NCBI RefSeq assembly: GCF_001696615.3
Contig: NZ_CP032268.1
Span: forward strand, 1 to 64,000
Direction of reading: 5' to 3'
Length of the DNA stretch: 64,000 bases
Source: Acinetobacter sp. WCHAc010034
Lineage (GTDB): Bacteria > Pseudomonadota > Gammaproteobacteria > Pseudomonadales > Moraxellaceae
Of the stretch, positions 8,640-64,000 are shown in pieces (position 1 is the first letter of the stretch; each line of letters begins with the position of its first letter). The notes beneath the pieces are model-generated. The model ran no database searches. It was not told the DNA's origin and saw only the letters and a list, made by a program, of their open reading frames with translations. Position numbers and translations under genes: made by a program.

Positions 8640-8987
8640 TTAGTTTTTGATACAAGGCAGGCCATTTTTCCACCAAGATTTCATACCACCTTTTAACTGT
8701 GTGACTGAATATCCCATCTTGGCTAATTTGCGTGTCGCTGGAATGCTTCGGTGCGCCGATAAACAAATGGTCACCACGGGCTGATCCAGATTGAGCCCCA
8801 ATGATTGTATTGTAGATTCATTCAACTGTGTAATAGGTAAATTAACAGCACCTTTTATATGACTGTGTTTAAACTCGTGAGCACTTCGGACATCAACAAT
8901 CTGTACAATTTCCCGTTTCTGTAATAATTCCTGACAAGTGATTTCAGGCACCTTGCCCCAAGGTAGATACATCAGAATATTAAACAT
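8640..8987 (-). CDS. Rhodanese-like sulfurtransferase (short, single domain)
   Basis: Rhodaneses move sulfane sulfur between thiosulfate or persulfide and thiols. The 115-residue protein has the VDVRSAHEFKHSHIKGAVNLP block (about 31-51) and an active-site loop beginning at Cys75 (CLSAHRS), followed by GMKSWWKNGLP. It has no signal peptide. It is followed in the same direction, about 50 bases on, by the blh-like pseudogene, so both probably formed a small sulfide-detoxification operon before decay. Confidence 0.85.
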   Translation of the reverse strand: MFNILMYLPWGKVPEITCQELLQKREIVQIVDVRSAHEFKHSHIKGAVNLPITQLNESTIQSLGLNLDQPVVTICLSAHRSIPATRKLAKMGYSVTQLKGGMKSWWKNGLPCIKN

Positions 8988-9326
8988 GATTTTCCTCTAT
9001 TAGAACAGTTGTTATCCGCGACTTATATTTATAAGGATTTAAAATAAAAATAAGTAGTAAAATAAATATAAGCCAATCTTGGGTTAAACTTCAAATCTAT
9101 CCTCATAGAAAATACAATGACTTTTTAATAACCAAACCTACAATGCAGTCCAACTTTAATAAGACCTCATTCGCTCCAGAATGATCTTACGCTTCCTATT
9201 CCATAAAGAAAAAATAAAATTATGTTTAGTAGCAGATTAAAATCGATTTTATCGTCTATTTTTCAATTATAAATTTTATATTTTGTTATACTATAACCTA
9301 TGTAATGTCCATAAAAGTGTAGTGAA
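8988..9326. promoter_or_regulatory. Divergent AT-rich intergenic region
   Basis: The region separates the minus-strand rhodanese from the plus-strand DUF2946-like gene and must hold both promoters. It is very AT-rich, with no clear operator or hairpin visible. Confidence 0.35.
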
Positions 9327-47599: not shown

Positions 47600-48628
47600 A
47601 TGTCCGTACAAAGCGAAGCTCAACTTGAAAATCAACTCATTGAACAGCTCAAAAACCTGGGCTATCACCAGGTTGATCTCAAAGATGAAAATCAACTGCT
47701 GAGCAATCTAAAAATTCAAGTTGAACGCGCCAATGACATCGCTTCTTTCTCTGCAAATGAATGGGCACAAGTCCTCAACCATCTCAAGGCTGGCAATAGT
47801 TTTAACTGTGCCAAAGTACTGCGTAATCGCTTTCCTGTGAACTTTGACGATGGTTCTACACGCCACATTGATTTTTTGTTTGCCGATCCTCAGAAAAACA
47901 TCTACCAAGTGACCAATCAGATCGCTATCGATCACAGTGCCAGTAATGGCCACACCAGTCGCTTTGATGTCACCTTGCTGATCAATGGCCTGCCTTTGGT
48001 GCAAATCGAGCTAAAACGCGCCGGGGTAGAGCTTCCTGAAGCCTTTAACCAAACCCAACGCTATGCCAAAGTCGCTTATAGTAGCGGAGCAGGTCTGTTT
48101 AATTACATCCAGCTGTTCGTGATTAGTAATCGTGACCACACCCATTACTATTCAACCGGCACCAGCAATTTCGAATTTACCTTCCCTTGGGCAGATTTTG
48201 ACAATAAGCATATCCATAAAATCGATACCTTTGCCGAAGCCTTTTTAAAGCATCAGCACATCACCCAAATGCTGACTGAATACATGGTGATCCTGGAAGT
48301 TGAAAAGCGTTTGATGGTGCTGCGTCCCTACCAAATCTATGCGGTACAGCAGATTATTCAACGTGTGCAACATTCAGCGCAAAATGGCTATATCTGGCAC
48401 ACCACAGGCTCAGGAAAAACCCTGACTTCATTCAAAGCCAGTCAACTCATCATGCGTTTGCCTGAAGTTGAAAAGGTCCTCTTCGTGGTGGATCGCAGTG
48501 ATCTCGATACCCAAACGGTACGTGAGTTCAATGCCTTCAAAAAAGACAGTGTCGATACCACCAAAAATACCGGAACTTTGGTCACTCAGTTGGGCCAAAA
48601 GCACGACAAACTGATTGTCACCACCTTA

Positions 48629-48637
48629 CAAAAGCTC
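48629..48637. repeat. 9-bp target duplication, IS1-family element (left)
   Basis: CAAAAGCTC; repeated at 49426-49434. Confidence 0.9.
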
Positions 48638-49425
48638 GGTGGTGTTTTAAAAAGTATGCTGACATTAAATGAAGCCATTATTGATGTAAAAGAAGGTTAA
48701 GTCGAAGGCTTTAAAATGGTTTTCAAGCTTTTTGGAGAAATTGCAACTTCTTCTAAAACCACGCCTTATTCGATGCCTTATTTTGCAATTATTACCTTCA
48801 ATTCCTACAGTAAACAACTTACCAATACTTTGCTTGCAGTTTTTAAAAGCAGTGATGAAACTGTCCCAATGATCACTTGCAATTCGGGTGTAGTGAATAC
48901 CTAATTGTTTAAGCTTTGTCTTCAACCTTTGGACTGTAGCTAAATCTCTCTTACCCCAAACATAAGCAACAATCTCACCTGTTTCTCGATGGTAGGCGTA
49001 AATAAGCCATTGTTTATTATTTTTATTTCCAACAAAAGTCCAGAATTCATCTACTTCGAGAGATTCATAATGACTTTGTTTAGGCTGAATTTGATAGGCC
49101 GATTCAGTTAAAGTCCGTAAGACTTTACCGATACTAATGCGCTCAACTTCAGCGATATCTCGTATACCGCTGCCTCTGACCATTAACTGTAATATTTTAC
49201 GAGTAATGCCAGAATTACATCCTAGATAGCTCAGAGCATGGTCACCAATAAACTGACGTTTGCAGTCTTTGCATTGGTAGTTTTGTTTCCCATCTACTTT
49301 GATGCCATTTTTCTTTATACTGTCACTGAGGCAGGTTGGACATTTGATTTCTAGAGTTATTTGCATTTCTCTATTTTATCAAAATTCAACCTGCTTTTTT
49401 TTAGCATACTTTTTGATACACCACC
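48638..49425 (-). mobile_element. IS1-family insertion sequence
   Basis: The 788-bp element has ends GGTGGTGTTTTAAAAAGTAT and the complement of GGTGGTGTATCAAAAAGTAT, with 9-bp target repeats. It lies in hsdR in the antisense direction. Short remnants of a close relative occur at 55041-55124 and 55893-55976. Confidence 0.88.
48665..49366 (-). CDS. IS1-family transposase (single open frame)
   Basis: The 233-residue transposase has a zinc-binding start (CPTC and CKDC, residues 9-35), an HTH (IRDIAEVERISIGKVLRTL, about 79-97) and the DDE domain with EVDEFWTFVG (near 125), ASDHWDSF (near 184) and HRIRRGFRRSCNFSKK. Unlike classical IS1 it needs no ribosomal frameshift between InsA and InsB, as it reads through in one frame. 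It looks complete. Confidence 0.87.
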   Translation of the reverse strand: MQITLEIKCPTCLSDSIKKNGIKVDGKQNYQCKDCKRQFIGDHALSYLGCNSGITRKILQLMVRGSGIRDIAEVERISIGKVLRTLTESAYQIQPKQSHYESLEVDEFWTFVGNKNNKQWLIYAYHRETGEIVAYVWGKRDLATVQRLKTKLKQLGIHYTRIASDHWDSFITAFKNCKQSIGKLFTVGIEGNNCKIRHRIRRGFRRSCNFSKKLENHFKAFDLTFFYINNGFI

Positions 49426-49434: not shown

Positions 49435-51282
49435 AATATTGCCATCAGTTCTGACCGTTATAGCGATCAGATTCACTATCTCAAAGATAAAAAAGTCGTG
49501 ATTATTTTTGATGAATGTCACCGTAGCCAATTTGGTGATACCCATCGCAATATCAAACGCTTCTTTAATCAGGCGCAAATGTTTGGTTTTACCGGAACGC
49601 CAATTTTTGAGAAAAACAGCCAACTGAAAATTGACTCAAAAGCAATCACCACCAATGCCCTGTTTGACGAATGCCTGCATAAGTACGTGATTACCGATGC
49701 CATTCGTGATGGCAACGTCCTACCCTTCCAGATTGCCTATCTGGGTAAATACACCAGCAATGGCATCGAAAATAGCGACAGCTATGAAGAAGATGTAGAA
49801 GGAATTGATACCAAAGAGCTGTTTGATAACCCTGCCCGTCTCGAAATGATTACCCGCTATATCCTGGATAATCACCACATCAAAACCAAAAATAAAACCT
49901 TCACCGCGATGTTCTGTGTCAGTTCCGTTGAAGTCCTGACCCAGTACTACGAACTGTTCAAAAAAGTACAGCAGGAAAAACAGCAACAAGCCGAAGAACA
50001 AGGTGGGATTTATACGCCATTGACCATTGCCACGATTTTTTCCTTTGCAGCCAATGAAGAACTCAAGGTCGAAGATCACAGTGGTTTAATTGAAGAAGAG
50101 TCTGCGGATCTCCCGCCCCGGATCAGCCAATCCAATCGGGATAAACTCGATCAGTACATTGCTGAATACAATGCCAAATTTGGCCAGAACTACAACTCAG
50201 GCGATGAGTTCTACGCTTACTATCGTGACATTGCCAATCGGGTACGTAAAAAAGAAATCGATATTTTGCTCGTGGTGAATATGTTCCTGACCGGTTTTGA
50301 CTCAAAACCACTCAACACCCTGTATGTCGACAAGAACCTTAAATATCATGGTCTCATTCAGGCCTTTTCACGCACCAACCGTATTCTGAACGCAGATAAG
50401 CCGTTCGGTAATATCCTGTGCTTCCGTAACCTGAAACAGGCCACGGACCAAGCCCTCACCCTATTCTCAAATAAAGATGAAGCACAAAGAATCGTGCTGA
50501 TTCCAAGTTTCGACAGCATCAAGGAAAAATACAACGCTGCGGTCGCCCATTTACTCAGTATTGCCCCAGATCCGGATCAAGTCCCCAATACGCTGGAAAC
50601 CGAAGAACAGCAATTGGAGTACGTCAAAGCCTTCCGTGAGGTGATGCGGATCAATGCCCAATTGGAAAACTTTGTCGAGTATGAGCAAGACGATACAGAT
50701 TTAAACAAAGCAGAATTCCAGAAACACACCTCGCAGTACAAATATCTGTACAACAACGTCCGTGTGGTCCAGCCTAAAGACAAGGTATCGGTCCTCAATG
50801 ACGTCAATTTCCAACTGGAACTGATCCACCGCGATACCGTGAATGTCGGTTATATCCTGAATTTACTGCAATCGGTGGTCAATCATAAAGATCCTGAAAA
50901 GAAACAGCAGTATCGTTCCCAGGTGCAAGATATCATCTCGACCAACCACAACTTGTATGACAAACAAGAGCTGATTCAAAAGTTCCTGGATGAAAACATT
51001 CCGCGCATGGCCAATGGTCAAAGCGTTGAACAAGCCTTTGCTCAGTTTTGGGATGTGGAAAAAGAAAAGGCGCTGAATGAGCTGTGTCAAAAAGAAGCCA
51101 TCAAACCTGAAGTCTTCAAAACGGTGCTCAGCCAATATGAATACACCCAGCGTTTACCTAGCCGGGAAGATGTCAAAGACTTACCGATTGCTCGCCCTAA
51201 GATCTCAGAACGTAAGACTCTGATGAATACCCTGGTTCTCAAAACTCGAAATTTTATTGAAAAGTTCTATCGGGGTTTCTAA

Positions 51283-51403
51283 ACACCATGGTCTAGGTCA
51301 TATTTTGCAGGCTCATATGGTGGCTACCCATTACTTGATCCTAGCCAAAATAATGGACAGCACTTCCCTCTAAAGATAACGTAACGTTAACTTTGTAGAT
51401 ACA
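51283..51403. other. Short gene-free segment after hsdR
   Basis: No clear gene. A weak dyad AACGTAACGTT-type stretch lies near 51378-51391. Confidence 0.4.
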
Positions 51404-51536
51404 AGAAATGACCATCTTGCGTAGCGATTCTACTCATTACTATTGCTTCATAGATAATTACTGCCTTTAACCATTTTTCTGCATACATCTTTTTAAGTTT
51501 AGTATTTTCTGCTTCCAGTTCTTTCAACAGTGCCAT
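51404..51536 (-). mobile_element. IS3-family OrfA fragment
   Basis: Read on the minus strand, about 44 codons begin MALLKELEAENTKLKKMYAE and continue WLKAVIIYEAI, typical of the coiled-coil end of IS3-family OrfA proteins. No OrfB follows, so it is a remnant. Confidence 0.6.
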
Positions 51537-52088
51537 CAATTAAAGCTGTAAAACTCCATAAATTAATAAAAAGATGAAAATTCACGCAAAAAAATTAAGA
51601 TAACAAGAAAAAATTTGATTTTGAAAAATATAAAGTTAGAAAAAAATAAAAATTCTAAAATATTCACCAGAAAGCAACTCGGTATTATGCGTACAATACG
51701 CATAACACCGACATTATAAGTTATTGTTTTAACGAGGTATATTAAAATTTGTTTGAAAAATAGTAAATAAAATATTAAACAAAAAATATTTAAAAAATTA
51801 TATATAATTCAATAATTTACAATTTTATTGAATCTAAACTAAAAAATTGCTTATAAAATATAAAATTAAATGAATTTTAACATAAGATAAATGTATTTAA
51901 AAACAAACACTTATGCTATCATTTTTTTGTAAATTAATTTGAACTCTAATAAAGCCAAAAATTTGGAATTAGTGTATAAATTGTACAGCTCTCCTATGGG
52001 TAGACAAATCTTTATAGATAGGTTTGTTTAAAAAAGTGTTATGAAGTTATGTTATTTAATTTATAAGATTAAATAACATGTTCTTATT
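51537..52088. other. AT-rich gene-free region near the partition genes
   Basis: About 550 bases of very high A/T content. It holds the palindrome at 51680-51710 and otherwise no supported gene. Its composition suits an origin-proximal or protein-binding region. Confidence 0.5.
51680..51710. promoter_or_regulatory. 31-bp palindrome, second copy
   Basis: Two 14-bp arms reading CGGTATTATGCGTA inward pair across CAA with one mismatch. The core ATGCGTA-CAA-TACGCAT equals that at 19650-19680 except for one centre base, while the outer arm sequences differ. Confidence 0.7.
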
Positions 52089-52388
52089 TTATTTAAAACT
52101 TTTATCAATCAGCTGCTTAAAATCTTCTAAATTCTGCTCTGCCAGTGACTCTAAAGCTATTCTTACAATACTAGATCTGTTAACACGAGCGTTATTACTT
52201 TTGATAATTAGCTCATCAATTAATTCACTTAATTCTTGGTTTAAAGAAAAGGTACAACGAACGAATTTCTTTTGTGAAACTTCTAGATCCTTAACTCTTT
52301 TATCAGCTCCAGATATGAAATTTTCAACCAGTTTATCCTGATCTGAAAGCTCGTCAGTTTTCTTTTTTAAACCGCTAAGACCTGCCAT
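52089..52388 (-). CDS. parB: Ribbon-helix-helix partition partner (ParB-like)
   Basis: The 99-residue protein has FVRCTFSLNQELSELIDELI (about 42-61) and SSIVRIALESLAE (about 72-84), the strand-helix-helix pattern of RHH DNA-binding proteins used as centromere-binding partners of ParA. It lies two bases after parA on the same strand. RHH dimers of this kind bind short direct repeats, like those before parA and in the array at 54525-55976, so it probably acts as both repressor and centromere binder. Confidence 0.7.
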   Translation of the reverse strand: MAGLSGLKKKTDELSDQDKLVENFISGADKRVKDLEVSQKKFVRCTFSLNQELSELIDELIIKSNNARVNRSSIVRIALESLAEQNLEDFKQLIDKSFK

Positions 52389-52390
52389 AG

Positions 52391-53029
52391 TTATACTCCT
52401 AAAAACTCTTGAGCTATCCCTTCAATTTCTGCTTTTGCTTTAAAATCACTTGTTACTTCAAAAACAGATAGGCCATTTTCATCTGCATCATCATAAACAT
52501 TTCGATTTGTCGTGATGTGGTCTAAGGCTTTTATTCCGAACGATATACAGGCTTCTTTAGCATCTAGAATTCGCTGTACTTGTGACGGTAATGTTGGGCA
52601 TTGTGTAATGATTGCTCTTGCATTCAAATCTGGATTCACTGCTCGCGCCAGTTTTAATACTTGCTCCATATGATCCAAAGTCTTTAGATCTCTACGTTTA
52701 GGCCTAAAAGGCAATAGCATATGTGTTGCTATAGTCATAGCAGAACGCAATGCTTCCGAATCTTGCCCACCAGCATCAATGATAATATCTTCATATCTTT
52801 TTGATAAATCTTTTAAAACTTGACGAATATTGCCTGAAGCTTGTACAGATGGAATATTCTTTAAATCCTCATTCTCATCACGCTCTTTAATCCAGTCAGT
52901 AGTTGTACCTTGAGGATCTGCATCTAGAAGAAGAACATCTCTATTCTTTTTTTGTAAATAAACCGCTAAGTTTTGGGCAAGGCAGCTTTTACCAGCTCCG
53001 CCTTTTTCACCACCTACTAAAATAATCAT
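52391..53029 (-). CDS. parA: ParA-family partition ATPase (module 1)
   Basis: ParA uses ATP to position plasmids before cell division. The 212-residue protein has the deviant Walker A KGGAGKS at 9-15 (with Lys9), Walker B (LDADPQGT near 36, then IIIDAGGQ near 85) and lacks an N-terminal HTH, so regulation is left to the small partner gene after it. Its upstream edge has two TTACRTAACT-like repeats starting one base before the ATG. Confidence 0.87.
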   Translation of the reverse strand: MIILVGGEKGGAGKSCLAQNLAVYLQKKNRDVLLLDADPQGTTTDWIKERDENEDLKNIPSVQASGNIRQVLKDLSKRYEDIIIDAGGQDSEALRSAMTIATHMLLPFRPKRRDLKTLDHMEQVLKLARAVNPDLNARAIITQCPTLPSQVQRILDAKEACISFGIKALDHITTNRNVYDDADENGLSVFEVTSDFKAKAEIEGIAQEFLGV

Positions 53030-53051
53030 AAGTTATGTAAGTTACGTAATT
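53030..53051. promoter_or_regulatory. Direct-repeat operator before parA
   Basis: AAGTTATGTAAGTTACGTAA holds two tandem copies of a ten-base unit (minus-strand reading TTACGTAACT, TTACATAACT). The same unit occurs in every complete repeat of the array at 54525-55976, suggesting that one protein binds both. Confidence 0.65.
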
Positions 53052-53225
53052 TTGTTAAAAACAATGTACAAGTTTGATTCTCCTGAATCAACTATTGTGA
53101 AAAATAAATTTAAAAAATAAAGTTATCCACAAGTAATGCTCTTTTTTAATTTTATATATATTTTTAAATTTATATTTATAAGACCTTTGTATGCCTTATG
53201 TAGTCTAGTTCTCAGAGGATTTATA
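53052..53225. promoter_or_regulatory. Origin of module 1: DnaA box and AT-rich segment
   Basis: A perfect DnaA box TTATCCACA lies at 53123-53131. It is followed by A/T-rich DNA up to the iterons, the usual layout of a Rep_3 origin. Confidence 0.75.
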
Positions 53226-53356
53226 TGGACGTTTTCCTGACAATAAGTGGACATTTTCCTTTATTTAAATGGACGTTTTCCTGACAATAAGTGGACATTT
53301 TCCTTTATTTAAATGGACGTTTTCCTGATATAAATGGACGTTTTCCTGGCATAAAT
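53226..53356 (+). repeat. Six 22-bp iterons of replication module 1
   Basis: Copies begin at 53226, 53248, 53270, 53292, 53314 and 53335. Each starts TGGACRTTTTCCT and is followed by a spacer alternating GACAATAAG and TTATTTAAA; the last two are variants. RepB binding to such iterons starts and limits replication. Confidence 0.9.
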
Positions 53357-53422
53357 AGATCTTCCATTAATGGTCATTAAGTGTTAATGTCCATTAATGA
53401 TATTTGTTTCTCTAATCACAAT

Positions 53423-54370
53423 ATGGCAAATCTAATTTATAAAGATAATAACTTGATTGAAGCATCTTATGCGTTGACTTTGTCTGAACAACGCTTAATT
53501 TTAGTTGCGATTATTGCAGCTAGGGAAATTGAAAAAGAGCTTACATCGGATACCTTGCTAACAATACATGCATCTGAATACATGAAGCACTTTAATTTGG
53601 GTCGTCAAGCGGCCTATGAGGCTCTTCAAGGAGCGTGTGATAACTTGTTTGAACGTAGACTCACCTATAAGGCCATAGATCCTGTTACAGGTAAGCCAGC
53701 GGTCTACAAAAGCCGTTGGGTATCAAAAGTTGGCTATGTTAAAGAAGCTGCATGCGCTCAACTAATTTTTGCTCCTGATATTTTACAGCTTTTTGTAAAA
53801 CTTGAAGAAAAATTTACCCGTTATGAATTAAAGCAAATTTCTCAATTATCTAGCGTATACGCTATACGGCTGTATGAACTTTTGATTAGATGGCGTAGCA
53901 AAGGCAAGCTATATATTAGTATGGTTGAATTGCGTGATAAGTTAGGTTTACTTGAAAATGAATATAAAACCATGGGCGATTTTAAAAAGCGTGTATTGAC
54001 GGTTGCCATAGATCAAATTAATAAACTTACTGATATCGACGTAAGTTATGAGCAGAAAAAAGAAGGAAGAACAATTACACATATCGAATTTTCTTTTAAT
54101 CAAAAAGCTTCCTTAATTGTTAGTGATAAGGTACTGGAACCGACATATCAGTTGACACCAAAACAATCTATATTTTTCGCTCAAAAATTGTGTGACCTTA
54201 TCAAATATCCCGAATTCGGGGGAAAATATGCCAATGTAGGCGAAGAGATCGAAGCGTTTAAAGAAAGGATTTCACTTGAACTTCTCGACCCTGAAAAGGT
54301 AAAAAAGTATTATCCTGATTTGTTAAAAGTGGGCTATAAAGAAAAATATAAATCAGAAAAGTTATCATAA
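53423..54370 (+). CDS. repB: Rep_3 family replication initiator RepB (module 1)
   Basis: RepB binds the iterons to start replication. From ATG 53423 the protein begins MANLIYKDNNLIEASYALTL, the family signature, and has two winged-helix domains (about 20-130 and 140-240). IRLYELLIRWRSKGKLYISM and KRVLTVAIDQINKLTDIDVS are clear. Total length about 315. An upstream GTG at 53381 keeps the frame open and adds 14 residues, but it lacks a ribosome site. Confidence 0.87.
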   Translation: MANLIYKDNNLIEASYALTLSEQRLILVAIIAAREIEKELTSDTLLTIHASEYMKHFNLGRQAAYEALQGACDNLFERRLTYKAIDPVTGKPAVYKSRWVSKVGYVKEAACAQLIFAPDILQLFVKLEEKFTRYELKQISQLSSVYAIRLYELLIRWRSKGKLYISMVELRDKLGLLENEYKTMGDFKKRVLTVAIDQINKLTDIDVSYEQKKEGRTITHIEFSFNQKASLIVSDKVLEPTYQLTPKQSIFFAQKLCDLIKYPEFGGKYANVGEEIEAFKERISLELLDPEKVKKYYPDLLKVGYKEKYKSEKLS

Positions 54371-54524
54371 CCTGAATAATAGAAATTCTTATTTTGAACA
54401 CTACTAACCTATAGAAAAAAATTTAGTCTGTCTTGGTAACCCTAGTTCTATAATTTGGTCTTTATTGAGAAGTGTCCATTTTAATTGGAAGGCTATTACA
54501 TGAACGGTTAGCAGCTGATCTATA
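54371..54524. other. Short gap between repB and the repeat array
   Basis: About 150 bases without a gene. Nothing identified. Confidence 0.4.
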
Positions 54525-55040
54525 AGGAATATTAAATTATAAAGTTACATAACTTATGAACTTATGAACTTATGAACTTATGAACTTATGTAATCCTGAA
54601 GAGAGTGATGAGATGGAAACCTCTCCCGGTCATGCTTGTCAGGGATTTGTCCATATATGGAAGTGCAGTGCTGAAAACTAAGGATCCATCTAATGAGAAG
54701 AACTGCCCGGGATTAATCTGCCAGGAATATTAAATTATGAAGTTACATAACTTACGTAACTTATAAACTTATGTAATCTGAAGAGAGTGATGAGATGGAA
54801 ACCTCTCCCGGTCATGCTTGTCAGGGATTTGTCCATATATGGAAGTGCAGTGCTGAAAACTAAGGATCCATCTAATGAGAAGAACTGCCCGGGATTGGTC
54901 TGGCAGGAATAAAAGTTACATAACTTGCGTAACTTATGATGTTATGTCATTTGGGAGAGGATATGAAATTGAAAACTCTCCCGGTAATTCCTGTCAGGGA
55001 TCTGTCCATATATGAGAGTCTGCCGCTGAAAATAAAAATT

Positions 55041-55124
55041 AGTGGTGTTTCAAAAAGTATGCTGAAAAAAACAATATGGCTTTTGATAAAATAGAGGTAT
55101 GAAAATAACGCTATAAATCAAATG
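55041..55124 (+). mobile_element. IS1-family left-end remnant inside the array (copy a)
   Basis: About 84 bases match the outer end and transposase start of the IS1-family element at 48638-49425 (AGTGGTGTTTCAAAAAGTAT on). It is joined to repeat sequence at 55125. Confidence 0.75.
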
Positions 55125-55892
55125 AAGAGAGTCCTCTCCCGGTCATGCTTGTCAGGGATTTGTCCATATATGGAAGCGCAGTGCTGAAAACTAAGGATCC
55201 ATCTAATGAGAAGAACTGCCCGGGATTAATCTGCTATAGGAATATTAAATTATGAATTAATGTAATCCTGAAGAGAGTATGGATGGAAACCTCTCCCGGT
55301 CATGCTTGTCAGGGATTTGTCCATATATGGAAGTGCAGTGCTGAAAACTAAGGATCCATCTAATGAGAAGAACTGCCCGGGATTAATCTGCCAGGAATAT
55401 TAAATTATGAAGTTACATAACTTACGTAACTTATAAACTTATGTAATCTGAAGAGAGTGATGAGATGGAAACCTCTCCCGGTCATGCTTGTCAGGGATTT
55501 GTCCATATATGGAAGCGCAGTGCTGAAAACTAAGGATCCATCTAATGAGAAGAACTGCCCGGGATTAATCTGCCAGGAATATTAAATTATGAAGTTACAT
55601 AACTTACGCAACTTATGAACTTATGTAATCTGAAGAGAGTGATGAGATGGAAACCTCTCCCGGTCATGCTTGTCAGGGATTTGTCCATATATGGAAGTGC
55701 AGTGCTGAAAACTAAGGATCCATCTAATGAGAAGAACTGCCCGGGATTGGTCTGGCAGGAATAAAAGTTACATAACTTGCGTAACTTATGATGTTATGTC
55801 ATTTGGGAGAGGATATGAAATTGAAAACTCTCCCGGTAATTCCTGTCAGGGATCTGTCCATATATGAGAGTCTGCCGCTGAAAATAAAAATT

Positions 55893-55976
55893 AGTGGTGT
55901 TTCAAAAAGTATGCTGAAAAAAACAATATGGCTTTTGATAAAATAGAGGTATGAAAATAACGCTATAAATCAAATG
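55893..55976 (+). mobile_element. IS1-family left-end remnant inside the array (copy b)
   Basis: Identical to 55041-55124 at an offset of 852 bases, so it arose by duplication of the array segment. It ends where the IS17-like copy 4 begins. Confidence 0.75.
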
Positions 55977-57015
55977 GGCTTTGTTGCACAAAGATTTGAA
56001 ATGCAAAGCGCCCCTAATTGAGCCAAATTTAAGGCGTAACTTGGGTAAGTGGGCGACCTAATTCCGTAAATCTGTTAAGGACTGCTACACGTGCATGGAT
56101 CTCATTCACCTGACTAGGAAAGCTTCTTGCCATTAATTTATCGCCTAATAATTTGATGCAATGCATCTTGGTTTCCACCAAACTGCGGCGATGATAGCCT
56201 GACCATTTTTTCCATAATGTCCTGCCTAAATGTTTAACTGTTCGAAGTAATTCATTTCGCTCTAGCGAGCTACTCTTTGTATCTTTCCATGGTTTCGCAT
56301 TTTTTCTAGGTGGAATCACCGCATGCGCTTGCCGATCTGCAATGACCTGACGGCATTGCTTGGTGTCATAAGCTCCATCGGTATAAACAGAGTCAATCTG
56401 CTCATCTTGTGGAATCTGATTAAGTAAATCACCAAGCACCTGTGAATCACTGACATTATTGGTTGTGAGCTGAATAGCGCGTATTTGTAGGGTTTTGGCA
56501 TCTATACCAATATGTAGTTTACGCCATTGGCGACGATATTCAGCTCCATGTTTCTTGCGTTTCCATTCGCCCTCACCTAGAAACTTCATGCCTGTAGAGT
56601 CTACGAGTAGATGCAGTCCATTGCAACTCTTTTCATAGCTAATTTGAATATCAATATGCTTTTGTCTTCTGCGAATGGTTGAATAATCCAGAGCTGTCCA
56701 ATCTAATCCGCAAAGTTTAATCAAGCTTTGGACAAAGCCAGTCACCATGCATACAGAAAGACGAAATAAGGATTTAATCATTAAGCAGCATTGGATAGCT
56801 GCGTCGGAGTAGGTTTGATTTCGCCCTTGTTTGCCTTTTGATGGAGCATACCATTGCGTAGCAGGATCAAACCAAATGGCAATATTTCCGCGACTCATGA
56901 GTGCTCGGTTATATGCGGGCCAATTGGTTGTGCGGTAGATTTTGTGTGTAGGCTTCTTCATTTGAAAATTATATCGCTGAAAAAGCCTTTACAGATAGGT
57001 TTGTGCAACAAAGCT
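55977..57015 (-). mobile_element. IS17-like IS (IS5 family), copy 4
   Basis: 1039-bp element with terminal repeats GGCTTTGTTGCAC. Unlike the other three copies, its flanks (AATCAAATG left, CCAATCAGT right) do not form a direct repeat. The left flank is the end of the IS1 remnant. A deletion or recombination has removed the right flank. Confidence 0.88.
56029..56961 (-). CDS. IS5-family transposase, copy 4
   Basis: 310-residue DDE transposase, full length, closest to copy 1 (same 1039-bp length) but with its own changes, such as LDWTALDYSTIRRRQKH and ISYEKSCNGLHLL in the first half and ARSFPSQVNE near the end. Catalytic blocks are intact. Confidence 0.88.
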   Translation of the reverse strand: MKKPTHKIYRTTNWPAYNRALMSRGNIAIWFDPATQWYAPSKGKQGRNQTYSDAAIQCCLMIKSLFRLSVCMVTGFVQSLIKLCGLDWTALDYSTIRRRQKHIDIQISYEKSCNGLHLLVDSTGMKFLGEGEWKRKKHGAEYRRQWRKLHIGIDAKTLQIRAIQLTTNNVSDSQVLGDLLNQIPQDEQIDSVYTDGAYDTKQCRQVIADRQAHAVIPPRKNAKPWKDTKSSSLERNELLRTVKHLGRTLWKKWSGYHRRSLVETKMHCIKLLGDKLMARSFPSQVNEIHARVAVLNRFTELGRPLTQVTP

Positions 57016-57220
57016 CCAATCAGTCAATAAATAGCAGTTTTAAGATTACCCCACAGCAAATATACAGTAAACATTTTTGACGGTATTTAAAGGTAGTATT
57101 GCAATCACCAGATAAAAAATATACTAATATCGTGATGATAGCTGTCAAAGTAAGATCTCTAGCAGATCATGGATCCTGGTGTAGAGCGTAAATTGAGCTA
57201 AATTTTAGAATGAGAGCAAT
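57016..57220. other. Gap before the DUF4236-like gene
   Basis: About 205 bases without a gene. A ribosome site near GAATGAGAGCAAT precedes the ATG at 57221. Confidence 0.4.
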
Positions 57221-57550
57221 ATGGGTTTTAGATTTCGTAAAAGTATTAAATTATTCCCGGGTTTTAAAATTAATCTGACCCATAAAGGCATCAGCAGTGC
57301 CAGCATTGGCAAACCTGGTGCTTCTCTAAATATTGGGAAAAAAGGTACGCGAACCAGTGTCGGTATTCCAGGTACGGGACTATCTTACTCTAAACACCAG
57401 CCTTACTCTAAAAAGACCCGTGTTCCACAACCGACATCGCTAGAACACACGGAATATAATCCTCAGAATTTAGAACAACCGAAGGCAAAGATATGGCCTT
57501 GGATTATTTTTGGAATATTGTGTTTTATTGTGGGTGCCGTCATTTTTTAG
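57221..57550 (+). CDS. DUF4236-domain protein
   Basis: The 109-residue protein begins MGFRFRKSIKLFPGFKINLT and continues KGISSASIGKPGASLNIGKK and GTRTSVGIPGTGLSYS, the complete DUF4236 beta-repeat domain (1-60). It is followed by a linker and one C-terminal membrane helix (about 90-108). The family is common next to plasmid maintenance genes; its role is unknown. Confidence 0.85.
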   Translation: MGFRFRKSIKLFPGFKINLTHKGISSASIGKPGASLNIGKKGTRTSVGIPGTGLSYSKHQPYSKKTRVPQPTSLEHTEYNPQNLEQPKAKIWPWIIFGILCFIVGAVIF

Positions 57551-60768: not shown

Positions 60769-61260
60769 AACCATACGTTTTGTCCGTTCAACCATACGTT
60801 TTGTCCGTTCAACCATACGTTTTGTCCGATAACCATACGTTTTGTCTCAATTTATCCACAAAATTATCAATAGTAAAAATTCTCTTAAAGTGAATATACA
60901 AATATTCATTGCAGTTAGCACAATAAAAACTATAACCATGAATTTTTTCTATTCCAAATAAATGATGATGTTTTAAGCACTATCAATACGTTTTGTCCGA
61001 TGTACATGCTTTTTTATTGAAGATTGGTTTTTCTTTCTATTGATATATTGGATTATTTTACTTATTTTTTTTATTGTAATGACATTAAAAGCATTTAATA
61101 GCAATGCTTTTGAGCTTATTTGAATTTTATTTTTGATATAACCATACGTTTTGTCCTGTTCTCATTATTTATTAGATTATATGAAATGACCATACGTTTT
61201 GTCCGTTGTTGATAATTTTATTAAATATCTGTGAATAACCATACGTTTTGTCCGTAAGCT
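60769..61260 (+). repeat. Iterons of replication module 2
   Basis: AACCATACGTTTTGTCCG occurs in four tandem copies at about 60769, 60790, 60811 and 60831 (roughly 21-bp spacing), and single copies near 60984 (variant), 61140, 61189 and 61235. A perfect DnaA box TTATCCACA lies at 60852-60860, directly after the tandem set. This is a second, unrelated iteron family. Confidence 0.88.
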
Positions 61261-61313
61261 AAAAGATATATTTTTATTGATCTGTTTGCTTTCATTGTTG
61301 ATTTCAATACAAA

Positions 61314-62624
61314 ATGTTATTAATGTATGGTTATAAAATTGTAACCACGGAGTTTGGTTTGAAAAGTACAGAATTAATAAAGCCTTCTTCTCGTCGTGTT
61401 CAATACACTGATTTAGTGGCTACACGTAATGATATGACCACTGCAAATTACAGTTATGAAGCTAATGAAGAAAAGCTAGTGTACTGTGCTATGGTTGCTG
61501 TGCGCAAAAATGAACTAAATAAAAATATGCGCTTTGATCCAGATGAGTTAATTACGATTAGTGCAGCTAATTTTGGTGAATTGATTTCAGAAAAAGATTT
61601 AGATAAAGATGTTGTCACAGCAAGTGAGCTATATGAAATTCATCGGTATGGTGAAAAGGCCTTGCAGCGTGTTTATGATAGTTATAAGCCTAAGGTAATG
61701 TTGATCAAGAAAAAAGATGATCCTACACCAATTAAGGTACCAATGATTATTTATTGTCATTATAGTAAAGAAACTAAATGCATGCAGATTCGTTTTGCTA
61801 GAGAATTTTATAATTACTTCTATAACTTAATTAATCCGACAGGTATGACGCATTCATTTAGTACACACCAAATTCGCTATGTTATGCGGATGCGTTCTAA
61901 TTATGCCATGCGGATTTATAGGATTCTCAATTCTGAATTATGGAAAGCTGAGTCATTAGGTATTCAGCAAATTCATGATATAAGTTTGGAAAGATTGCGT
62001 TTTGCTTTAGATATTGAAGATAAATATAAACTAATCGATAACTTAAAAAGCCGTGTTTTGAATGTTGCTAAAACACAAATTAATAAGTTAAGTAATCTTG
62101 AAATTGATTATGAAACGATTAAAAATGGAAAATTTGTTGTAGGTATACGTTTTACTTACAAAATGAAGGAAGAGCATAGAAATCTAATTTTTCAACGTAT
62201 TATTGATCGATTAAAAGAAAAACATCTTAAAAATGCAATTCCATATAGTGATGATGGATCACACTTTAAAGATAAAGAACGCGTTAAATATATTAAACCA
62301 GTCACTAAGTTGAGCTCTAAGCAAATCACAGTTTTAGTGAATTGTGATGTTTTCTTAAACGATTATGGTTGTTTTTTAGGTGATTTGGATACGATTACAG
62401 CTAAAAAAACGATGCGTAGCTTATTAACAAATAAGTTAGATATATTGAATGATCATAAACTTATTGATCTGGATTACTATTTTTGGATACAAGCAAAACG
62501 CAATATGAATATCTTTAAAAAAGATGCGTCTGAAGATAATATGGCAGAGCATGAAGATAAAAATATTGCAGATTCTGATATGGATGAAATTTTAGATCCT
62601 GCAGAAGATCAACTACCTTTCTGA
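61314..62624 (+). CDS. repB: Rep_3 family replication initiator RepB (module 2)
   Basis: The 436-residue initiator has two winged-helix domains: NYSYEANEEKLVYCAMVAV (about 45-63) to MRIYRILNSELWK in the first half, and LKSRVLNVAKTQINKLSNLE (about 242-261) in the second. The C-terminus beyond 330 is an acidic extension. The GTG/ATG choice is unclear: the ATG at 61314 has no ribosome site, whereas a TTG near 61360 follows ACGGAGT. The iterons before it are unlike those of module 1, so the two replicons should not cross-control. Confidence 0.83.
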   Translation: MLLMYGYKIVTTEFGLKSTELIKPSSRRVQYTDLVATRNDMTTANYSYEANEEKLVYCAMVAVRKNELNKNMRFDPDELITISAANFGELISEKDLDKDVVTASELYEIHRYGEKALQRVYDSYKPKVMLIKKKDDPTPIKVPMIIYCHYSKETKCMQIRFAREFYNYFYNLINPTGMTHSFSTHQIRYVMRMRSNYAMRIYRILNSELWKAESLGIQQIHDISLERLRFALDIEDKYKLIDNLKSRVLNVAKTQINKLSNLEIDYETIKNGKFVVGIRFTYKMKEEHRNLIFQRIIDRLKEKHLKNAIPYSDDGSHFKDKERVKYIKPVTKLSSKQITVLVNCDVFLNDYGCFLGDLDTITAKKTMRSLLTNKLDILNDHKLIDLDYYFWIQAKRNMNIFKKDASEDNMAEHEDKNIADSDMDEILDPAEDQLPF

Positions 62625-62676
62625 TGATAACCTTTCTTATGTATCATTTTTTAATCTTATATATATGGTAAATGGT

Positions 62677-62711
62677 AGTATCCAATATCAATCTATAACA
62701 TATTGGATACT
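62677..62711. promoter_or_regulatory. Inverted repeat between repB and parB (module 2)
   Basis: AGTATCCAATAT and ATATTGGATACT pair across 11 bases. It lies downstream of both convergent genes and could be a protein binding site. Confidence 0.5.
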
Positions 62712-62712
62712 C

Positions 62713-62748
62713 AATTATAAATTTCCACTGTGGAAATTTATAATTTTT
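62713..62748. terminator. Bidirectional terminator between repB and parB
   Basis: AATTATAAATTTCCA and TGGAAATTTATAATT pair around CTG, followed by TTTTTTA. It can stop both converging transcripts. Confidence 0.8.
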
Positions 62749-63746
62749 TATACCTTATCGTCTAAATCAGCAAGAAAAGCTTCTAGTTTTTCAATTTTTT
62801 CTTGATTAAATTCAGCATTTAAACTAGTACGAATATTTACGACTGTCTTCCCATTGAGATTTTTTTCAATCTTAATTGAGCCAAATTTAAGACCATTTTT
62901 ATCTTTTAGTACCATTTTATTAATTTTAGACGTATTTGTGATATTTTGTTCTTGCTTTTTAGCTATCTCTTGTACAGTTAATGCTTTTTCTATTTCGTAA
63001 ATGAATTTTTTTGATGGACGATTAGTTTCTGTAAATTCATTTAGATATTTTTTCCATATATTAAATGTGGCAGATTCAACCAATTGATGATTAAATTTTA
63101 AAACGAGTTTATTTAATTCGGTTAACAATTGTTGTGCAGTTGCACCTGAAATAGCTTTTGGATTTATTTTTAGATCTTCTTTTATATAATCTGGAAGTTT
63201 ATAAAAGCTCATTAATCTAAAGTATTTAGATTGATCTAGTTGATATTTTTGAGTGATAAATTCTACATTTTGTATAGAGTATCCAAACTCATTACAATGT
63301 TTTTGTATGGCGTTGACTAATTCAAAATCACTAAGATCCGATCGATGTAAGTTATCAATCAATGAAATTAAAGCTGTTTTTTCCTTGGATTTATCATCTC
63401 GAATAATTGCACGAATCGTCTTATGCTTTAATATATCTCTAACAGCTCTAAACCTTTTTTCTCCACCGACGAGCTCATATCTTTCCTCTTTTTTTATAAC
63501 AACAATAGGGTAAATTTGTCCATTCGTTGCAATACTCGTGGCAAGAATTTCAACTTCCTGTAAAACTTTATCTGTAATAATACGAGGTTGATGCTCTGAG
63601 AAGTCAATAAGTTCTATAGGTACATCAACAATATTATTTTCAATTGATGATATTAATGATACTTTTCCTGTTCCTGCTGCATTAATAAATGCCTGCTCCA
63701 TTTCAAGAGAATCATTAAAATCGACAATTAATGGTTTTTTTGCCAT
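62748..63746 (-). CDS. parB: ParB-family partition protein (module 2)
   Basis: The 332-residue ParB has the nuclease-like ParB/Srx domain with ELVGGEKRFRAVRDI (about 93-107) and NLHRSDLSDFELVNAI (about 132-147), then an HTH region (YQLDQSKYFRLMSFYKLP) and a C-terminal dimer domain. It binds parS and CTP. Its start overlaps the parA stop by one base (TAATG), so the pair forms a par operon. Confidence 0.87.
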   Translation of the reverse strand: MAKKPLIVDFNDSLEMEQAFINAAGTGKVSLISSIENNIVDVPIELIDFSEHQPRIITDKVLQEVEILATSIATNGQIYPIVVIKKEERYELVGGEKRFRAVRDILKHKTIRAIIRDDKSKEKTALISLIDNLHRSDLSDFELVNAIQKHCNEFGYSIQNVEFITQKYQLDQSKYFRLMSFYKLPDYIKEDLKINPKAISGATAQQLLTELNKLVLKFNHQLVESATFNIWKKYLNEFTETNRPSKKFIYEIEKALTVQEIAKKQEQNITNTSKINKMVLKDKNGLKFGSIKIEKNLNGKTVVNIRTSLNAEFNQEKIEKLEAFLADLDDKV

Positions 63747-64000
63747 TACAGGATCTCCACCAAAAATTCATTTAATTCATCTTTTGCTTTGCTGCTACCC
63801 ATTTCTAATACTGATTTTCCTTCGATCATCGCATCGCGAAATTGTTTGCGATCACGCAAAATTGTATTTAGTGTTTTAACAGACTTGACTTGCTGTAATA
63901 GCTCTAAAGCAGCATCAATTTCTGTAGATTTATTATTAGTTGGGGCTTTATTTAACACCACAAATGTTTTTAAATTTTTATTCACTTGTTTTGCTGTATT
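63746..64000 (-). CDS. parA: ParA-family ATPase, C-terminal part (runs off the window)
   Basis: The minus-strand frame ending at TAA 63746-63748 is open to the window edge and reads NKNLKTFVVLNKAPTNNKS, then KTLNTILRDRKQFRDAMIEG. This fits the C-terminal region of ParA (after the Walker B strand). The Walker A motif would lie beyond 64000. It is coupled to parB. Confidence 0.75.
   Translation of the reverse strand, partial: NTAKQVNKNLKTFVVLNKAPTNNKSTEIDAALELLQQVKSVKTLNTILRDRKQFRDAMIEGKSVLEMGSSKAKDELNEFLVEIL

Follow-up and report, generated by a model that had tools for sequence, protein, structure and literature searches.

How plasmids couple the control of their replication to their segregation is an open question. 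Accessory iterons located away from the origin set copy number and incompatibility, and in the plasmids P1 (incA) and F (incC) such iterons lie next to the partition sites parS and sopC. Partition systems of type Ib are exemplified by ParFGH of plasmid TP228, in which ParG is a ribbon-helix-helix (RHH) protein and the parH site lies upstream of parFG (PMC5389482, excerpts). On chromosome II of Vibrio cholerae, the initiator RctB has activating 12-mer and inhibitory 39-mer sites, and the partition protein ParB2 competes at the 39-mers (PMC3688505 and PMC6090056, excerpts). In Deinococcus radiodurans, the direct repeats cisII/cisMP next to parAB have been reported to act as ori and as parS-like sites (PMC7671480, excerpts), while in mega-plasmids of the pALWED1.1 type, repeats of 83-84 bp on the start-codon side of rep have been read as iterons (PMC8490738, excerpts).

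The rep-par locus and its repeat array

The window analysed here is the whole stretch of 64.0 kb, out of a contig of 66,814 bp, and the nearest matches of its array are Acinetobacter plasmids. On the minus strand, parA (52391-53029; AAA_31, CbiA) encodes a 212-aa Walker ATPase whose ATPase domain starts at residue 2, that is, a small ParA lacking an N-terminal HTH, as in ParFG-type (type Ib) modules; its score against NF041546 (ParA_partition), 136 bits, is under the cut-off of 180. Directly downstream of parA, the position expected in a ParFG-type module, lies the gene of a 99-aa RHH-like protein (52089-52388, minus strand), the proposed centromere-binding protein and parAB repressor. Divergent from both runs repM on the plus strand (53423-54370; Rep3_N 2e-33; NF038290 382 bits, cut-off 250), and between parA and repM six 22-bp iterons (53221-53351, plus strand) form the origin. 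A Rep_3 initiator with tandem iterons upstream of rep marks an iteron-controlled replicon. Behind repM lies a composite array of eight units (54542-55976) whose far end is an IS1-family remnant, followed by an IS5-family element.

The earlier note had described the 99-aa protein as a small RHH protein next to parA. The position stands, and the fold itself is likely. The match to Pfam RHH_1 (E=9.6e-4, 19.5 bits) falls just under the curated threshold of 20.5. A predicted model (m7e33c856fd73; mean pLDDT 80, pTM 0.48 as a monomer) has helices at residues 51-64 and 71-84, and its best PDB matches, all weak, are mostly RHH proteins (Reg576, ParD, PrpA), followed by TrpR; that ParG is not among the few chains listed proves nothing. 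A sequence search of the PDB with the RHH alignment returned only three low-scoring, implausible rows.

Two other regions of the window deserve mention. A second replicon occupies 60769-63985. It has 21-bp repeats at 60769-60846 and 61134-61255, genes for a Rep_3 protein (61314-62624) and for a protein with a ParB_N domain (62748-63746), and a short ORF (63746-63985) that matches the end of the ParA family; the contig may be a two-replicon plasmid. Between 47600 and 51282, a type I restriction-like hsdR frame looks interrupted by a transposase-like ORF of 233 aa (48665-49366), which leaves one part of it at 47600-48700 and the other at 49498-51282, these names being a reading of the ORFs alone, without a family search; a match at 49341-49424 is to IS1-family DNA like the remnants in the array.

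The 181-bp repeat reported earlier holds for the full units of the array: Tandem Repeats Finder (TRF) gives a period of 182 with 7.5 copies over 54567-55866, and some units are shorter, the spacings between successive unit iterons being 182, 173, 158, 157, 182, 182 and 173 bp. Two IS1-family end fragments lie within the array about 852 bp apart (55031-55124 and 55891-55976). Their flanks match, from which it follows that the array was re-amplified or duplicated after IS1 had inserted.

The motif TTACRTAACT, which the earlier note had placed in both the parA leader and the array, has ten exact matches in the 64 kb (0.36 expected; none of 100 shuffles gave more than 2). They are found only in the parA operator (2) and in the array (8), so the claim is borne out. 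The operator copies, at 53031-53040 and 53040-53049 on the minus strand and one base before the parA ATG, belong to a tandem TTACGTAACTTACATAACTT (53029-53052, minus strand) directly before that ATG. Much the same holds across the 29 rep-par loci compared below: TTACGTAACTT stands directly before parA in 28 and TTACGTAAGTT in the remaining one, as with the direct repeats of type Ib systems. The parA ATG abuts the operator boxes (53027-53052) and a ribosome-binding site has no room between them, an arrangement conserved in relatives; either the parA start is leaderless, or a bound repressor may occlude its translation.

The shorter box AACTTA/TAAGTT occurs 16 times in the array tract (mean 1.1 and maximum 5 in 200 shuffles), mostly in steps of 8-9 bp that resemble the 8-bp steps of the parH repeats. 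Over the whole window the hexamer is not rare, with 76 copies in all against a mean of 58 and a maximum of 75 in 20 shuffles, and it is therefore the clustering that matters rather than the hexamer itself. Dense clusters are present in the window at the operator and the array only. In six of the eight units an AACTTA box lies no more than 54 bp from the iteron; two middle units have none so close. The clusters, all on the plus strand, lie in unit 1 at 54542-54594 (including five AACTTATG in tandem), in units 2, 6 and 7 at 54740-54776, 55410-55446 and 55592-55628 (three AACTTA each), and in units 3 and 8 at 54913-54946 and 55765-55798 (one AACTTA each).

Every one of the eight units also carries one 23-bp copy of a rep iteron, inverted relative to rep and the origin, which had gone unnoticed in the earlier note. 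The sequence ATGGACNNNTNCCTGACA has ten exact matches in the 64 kb (0 expected), comprising two origin iterons and the eight array sites. On the minus strand these sites are 54637-54659, 54819-54841, 54992-55014, 55150-55172, 55307-55329, 55489-55511, 55671-55693 and 55844-55866; the third and eighth are the GGACAGATCCC variant, and the fourth and fifth have no boxes nearby. The array thus provides eight additional iterons outside the origin, of a diverged class. Their core reads GGACARATCCC, against GGAC(A/G)TTTTCC in the window's origin, so they are not plain origin copies. A matrix of the window's own six iterons, applied at half score, misses them, and within the window lineage such own-origin matrices find no array site except five in L004. 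A pooled matrix built from 75 distinct origin iterons of relatives recovers the same eight sites at 20.6-25.4 bits; on this scale origin iterons score 16.9 bits and up (median 27.2), and shuffles give a mean of 0.13 sites with a maximum of 2.

Iterons and boxes in related loci

We compared 29 rep-par loci. This set excludes L003, which is truncated by the start of its record; L008 and L052, whose RHH gene has no neighbouring repM; L019 and L021, which differ in gene order; L024, which comes from the record that also supplied L002; and L042, for lack of a complete RHH match. Array iterons follow repM in 24 of the 27 loci scanned with the pooled matrix (L028 and L038, with less than 300 bp after rep, were left out). 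Of the three loci without such iterons, one is the distant L020, and the contigs of the other two stop 519 and 582 bp past rep. In 10 of the 24 there are no more than two sites, and L025, with a single site, does not surpass the shuffle maximum in number. Box counts lie above those of all shuffles in 18 of the 19 loci tested, L025 being the exception.

When both elements were masked, the arrays of 17 loci fell into six groups with no similarity between groups save for one stretch of 65 bp. The window's group has seven loci (the window, L001, L002, L004, L023, L026 and L029); the others are L030, L031-L033, L005, L007, and a group of L006, L017, L018 and, weakly, L041. The 65-bp piece lies after repM of L029; the arrays of L006, L017 and L018, to which that of L029 is not otherwise related, contain DNA 88% identical to it. 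Iterons and boxes are kept in all six spacer groups, which suggests selection for their pairing in relatives. Within one array the units can be nearly identical (98-99% in L001, L005, L007 and L018).

The pairing is polar. In the 12 loci with one iteron per unit, boxes lie nearest the GACA end of the iteron for 64 of 65 iterons; over all 17 loci the count is 122 of 163. With the iteron oriented, the close right-hand boxes are 0-63 bp away and the nearest left-hand box at least 64 bp; the exceptions are a single unit of L033, at 32 bp, and four units of L041, at 31-41 bp. Boxes are lacking around many iterons, often around alternate ones, in L006, L007, L017, L018 and L041. Relative to rep, the iteron-box module runs inverted in the window group, whereas all other groups have it in direct orientation. 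Because its orientation switches as a whole, the module behaves as one unit.

The iteron is itself highly constant. In the window group, 37 of 37 array iterons read CATATATGGACARATCCCTGACA despite differing flanks, a count that rests on matrix matches, since the unit alignment selected its units by an expression containing the 23-mer and is invariant there by construction. Between lineages, the mean identity of array iterons is 0.88 against 0.67 for origin iterons, as computed from one hand-picked array variant for each of eight loci. A test for covariation of array iterons with the origin iterons of the same locus gave no clear signal, the best match being 0.77-0.95 to the own origin and 0.79-0.81 to those of other lineages. 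Given this match hardly above that to other lineages, the core differences and the misses of the own-origin matrices, another protein or another form of Rep could be the reader of these sites.

Boxes are also found outside the arrays. In 16 of 28 relatives of the main family (all loci except L020 were scanned), the RHH gene is followed, at a distance of no more than 1.5 kb, by a pure tract of boxes in 8-9 bp steps, with up to 25 copies in L031; none is left in the window. In L019, L020 and L021, whose RHH proteins are 41-48% identical and one of which is from Moraxella, boxes precede parA and follow the RHH gene, and there is no array. As they flank parAB even there, the boxes go with parAB. 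In some loci a displaced array unit, holding two iterons, lies past the RHH gene (L017 at 8700-9220; L018, L036 and L040 about 700-900 nt after the gene). Next to it comes, in L017, L036 and L040, a pure tract of TTAAACTTA with 14, 7 and 9 copies, respectively.

Distribution and linkage of the arrays

The RHH protein is present in 169 PLSDB records. Among the 42 records matched by the window's array, 17 are window-type array plasmids, exactly the 17 whose RHH protein is at least 97% identical; the others that are listed among the remaining 25 cover 11-13% of the query (the IS1 remnant). An array of the L018 type matches 101 records, 96 of them over at least 80% of its length. These arrays may have been overlooked so far: no feature is annotated at any of the listed places, 17 of the window type and 10 out of the 101 of the L018 type, and the L017 array is annotated as a repeated hypothetical ORF. 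Moreover, the sequence of 7 of the 29 loci breaks off less than 600 bp past rep, which repeats would be expected to cause when short reads are assembled.

At 55% identity or more, the RHH protein was found in 27 of 149 Acinetobacter genomes, and array-type iterons in all 27 of these and in 0 of the 122 others. The pattern ATGGACARATCCCTGACA occurs in 14 genomes, exactly those with 97-100% RHH identity, and GGACRRATTCCTGACA in exactly the other 13, with the caveats that the patterns derive from loci overlapping the sample and that some GGACRRATTCCTGACA matches are origin iterons (e.g. G132). Both are absent from the remaining 122, including 8 with a distant or partial RHH relative, and reversed-pattern controls gave 0 and 1 matches. 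In 24 of the 27 genomes at least one site lies on the contig of the RHH gene. The co-occurrence value of 3e-30 is not a true probability, as the plasmids are related, and since array and rep-par unit share descent, their co-occurrence is not independent evidence.

A pooled pattern, GGACRRATYCCTGACA, matched 11 of 18 named records: the nine array plasmids given, the record of L008, which elsewhere has a second RHH gene near an array, and pA297-3 with one stray site. It is absent from seven of seven control plasmids, namely L043-L046, four RepM plasmids that gave no match to the RHH protein, and L019, L020 and L021, whose RHH protein is a distant one. In one of the former, the small RepM plasmid L044, repeats of 48-108 bp in or near a hypothetical gene (846-1117) are unrelated to the array. 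In pA297-3 (L052), the RHH gene stands beside a 186-bp ORF in parA's place, with no repM there and no array, from which we conclude that the array goes with the rep-par unit and not with the RHH gene alone. Excerpts of PMC9927589 and PMC7885321 describe the pA297-3 plasmid family as having no identifiable rep. The RHH gene and 186-bp ORF (L052 8813-9288, L008 6813-7288), next to a urate-degradation module and with no repM, are a remnant of the rep-par unit.

Possible roles of the array

There are several possible explanations for the array. We favour, as rather probable, a composite incompatibility and centromere locus for plasmid maintenance, bound by both RepM and the RHH partition protein. 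That both proteins bind the array is the firmer part of this reading and quite probable; that the array has centromere activity is about an even call. Against the composite reading stand the many box-less iterons of L006, L007, L017, L018 and L041, the separate tracts past the RHH gene, and the core differences between array and origin iterons in the window group. The two elements, with their pairing, polarity, conservation and linkage, can be read from the DNA itself. From iteron and type Ib systems we infer which protein binds where, as well as titration, handcuffing, centromere activity and repression. Each unit would present RepM with a single 23-bp iteron, different in class from those of the origin, and most units would offer the parA-adjacent RHH protein a cluster of AACTTA boxes on the GACA side of that iteron. 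Rep bound to the array would titrate the initiator and handcuff plasmids, setting copy number and incompatibility; the RHH protein on the array boxes would recruit ParA, making the array a centromere, and on the boxes at the parA start the same protein would repress parAB by autoregulation.

The earlier note had taken the array for a plausible partition site, and part of this survives: array and operator have the box family in common, and the boxes go with parAB. With a rep iteron in every unit, however, 'partition site' describes at most half of the array, and the separate box tract in 16 of 28 relatives counts against a role as sole centromere. A stricter version, in which the boxes do the work and an ancestral unit has passed on the iteron-like 23-mer as a passenger, could point to those same tracts near parAB, also seen in distant relatives, but we consider it unlikely. 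The supposed passenger is the most constant part of the unit in the window group and more alike between lineages than the origin iterons (in the comparison of one hand-picked variant per locus), and in the window it is present even in the two units without boxes. The converse reading, an array for copy control (inc) only, in which accessory iterons titrate or handcuff Rep and the boxes are relics of a par-locus tract that spread, is to our minds just as improbable. Iterons without boxes are common in L006, L007, L017, L018 and L041, and 16 of 28 loci have a separate candidate centromere, both of which speak for it; against it, the boxes of six spacer groups outnumber those of any shuffle in 18 of 19 loci and keep to a fixed side of the iteron.

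A repeat without function, expanding beside the origin by recombination or replication slippage, would account for the near-identity of units, as a young amplification would give, and for the duplicated 852-bp stretch with its IS1 remnant in the window. This is very unlikely in view of the complete turnover of spacers around two short elements that persist. An array of small RNA genes, which intergenic repeats of RNA-gene size might bring to mind, is the least probable of all and was rejected: Rfam covariance models gave 0 matches over 51000-57500 even at E up to 1 and 0 over the whole window at gathering scores, the spacers are not conserved between groups, and there are fewer promoter-like sites, 2, than the 13.4 that shuffles give.

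Within the composite reading, one DNA element for both copy-number control and segregation is suggested in an Acinetobacter plasmid family. Whether the array goes further and couples the two processes is a tentative proposal, the step from adjacency to coupling being drawn by analogy with V. cholerae chromosome II. Comparably speculative is a switch in which the array iterons would be dedicated inhibitory Rep sites and the box-bound RHH protein would release or shape Rep-mediated pairing, so that plasmids would be freed for replication as ParA captures them. If true, more than 100 sequenced Acinetobacter plasmids would carry a multi-unit counterpart of the V. cholerae 39-mers and ParB2. With the two types of site repeated many times in a single compact and polar unit, coupling is directly testable, and there are natural variants: units with iterons only, both orientations relative to rep, six spacer groups, and loci with or without a separate box tract.

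Accessory iterons beside a centromere are already known, and repeats with ori and parS-like roles have been reported. A tandem unit pairing Rep sites with RHH partition sites was not found in the literature searched, of which most subscription papers were outside reach; a search for Rep and ParB in one repeat gave no match, and the accessible parts of PMC8490738, PMC7315799, PMC7031236, PMC7885321, PMC10117892 and PMC9927589 hold no description of the array. The pALWED1.1-type repeats are likewise long tandem repeats near rep in large Acinetobacter plasmids, but they belong to another plasmid family, and no partition boxes are mentioned with them in the excerpts of PMC8490738. Chromosome II of V. 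cholerae resembles this locus, as we read it, in having two classes of initiator sites with a partition protein beside or on the inhibitory class; as far as the excerpts go, it differs in having two 39-mers and no tandem array, in a 39-mer sequence unrelated to the 12-mers, and in a ParB2 that is not described as RHH (PMC3688505, PMC6090056). The locus shares with ParFGH the small ParA, the downstream RHH-like gene and the short direct repeats just upstream of parA, whereas here the boxes are found again behind rep, within large repeats that have an iteron apiece, and no iterons are described for parH in the excerpts of PMC5389482. The D. radiodurans repeats also lie by parAB and are reported to have ori and parS-like roles; as far as described there, they differ in consisting of DnaA boxes and 18-bp repeats upstream of parAB, with no plasmid-type Rep and no large composite unit. 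P1 and F are alike in having iterons outside the origin, behind rep and near partition sites. There, however, iterons and centromere form separate blocks, whereas the present array interleaves the two kinds of site within single units, and its putative centromere-binding protein is RHH-like.
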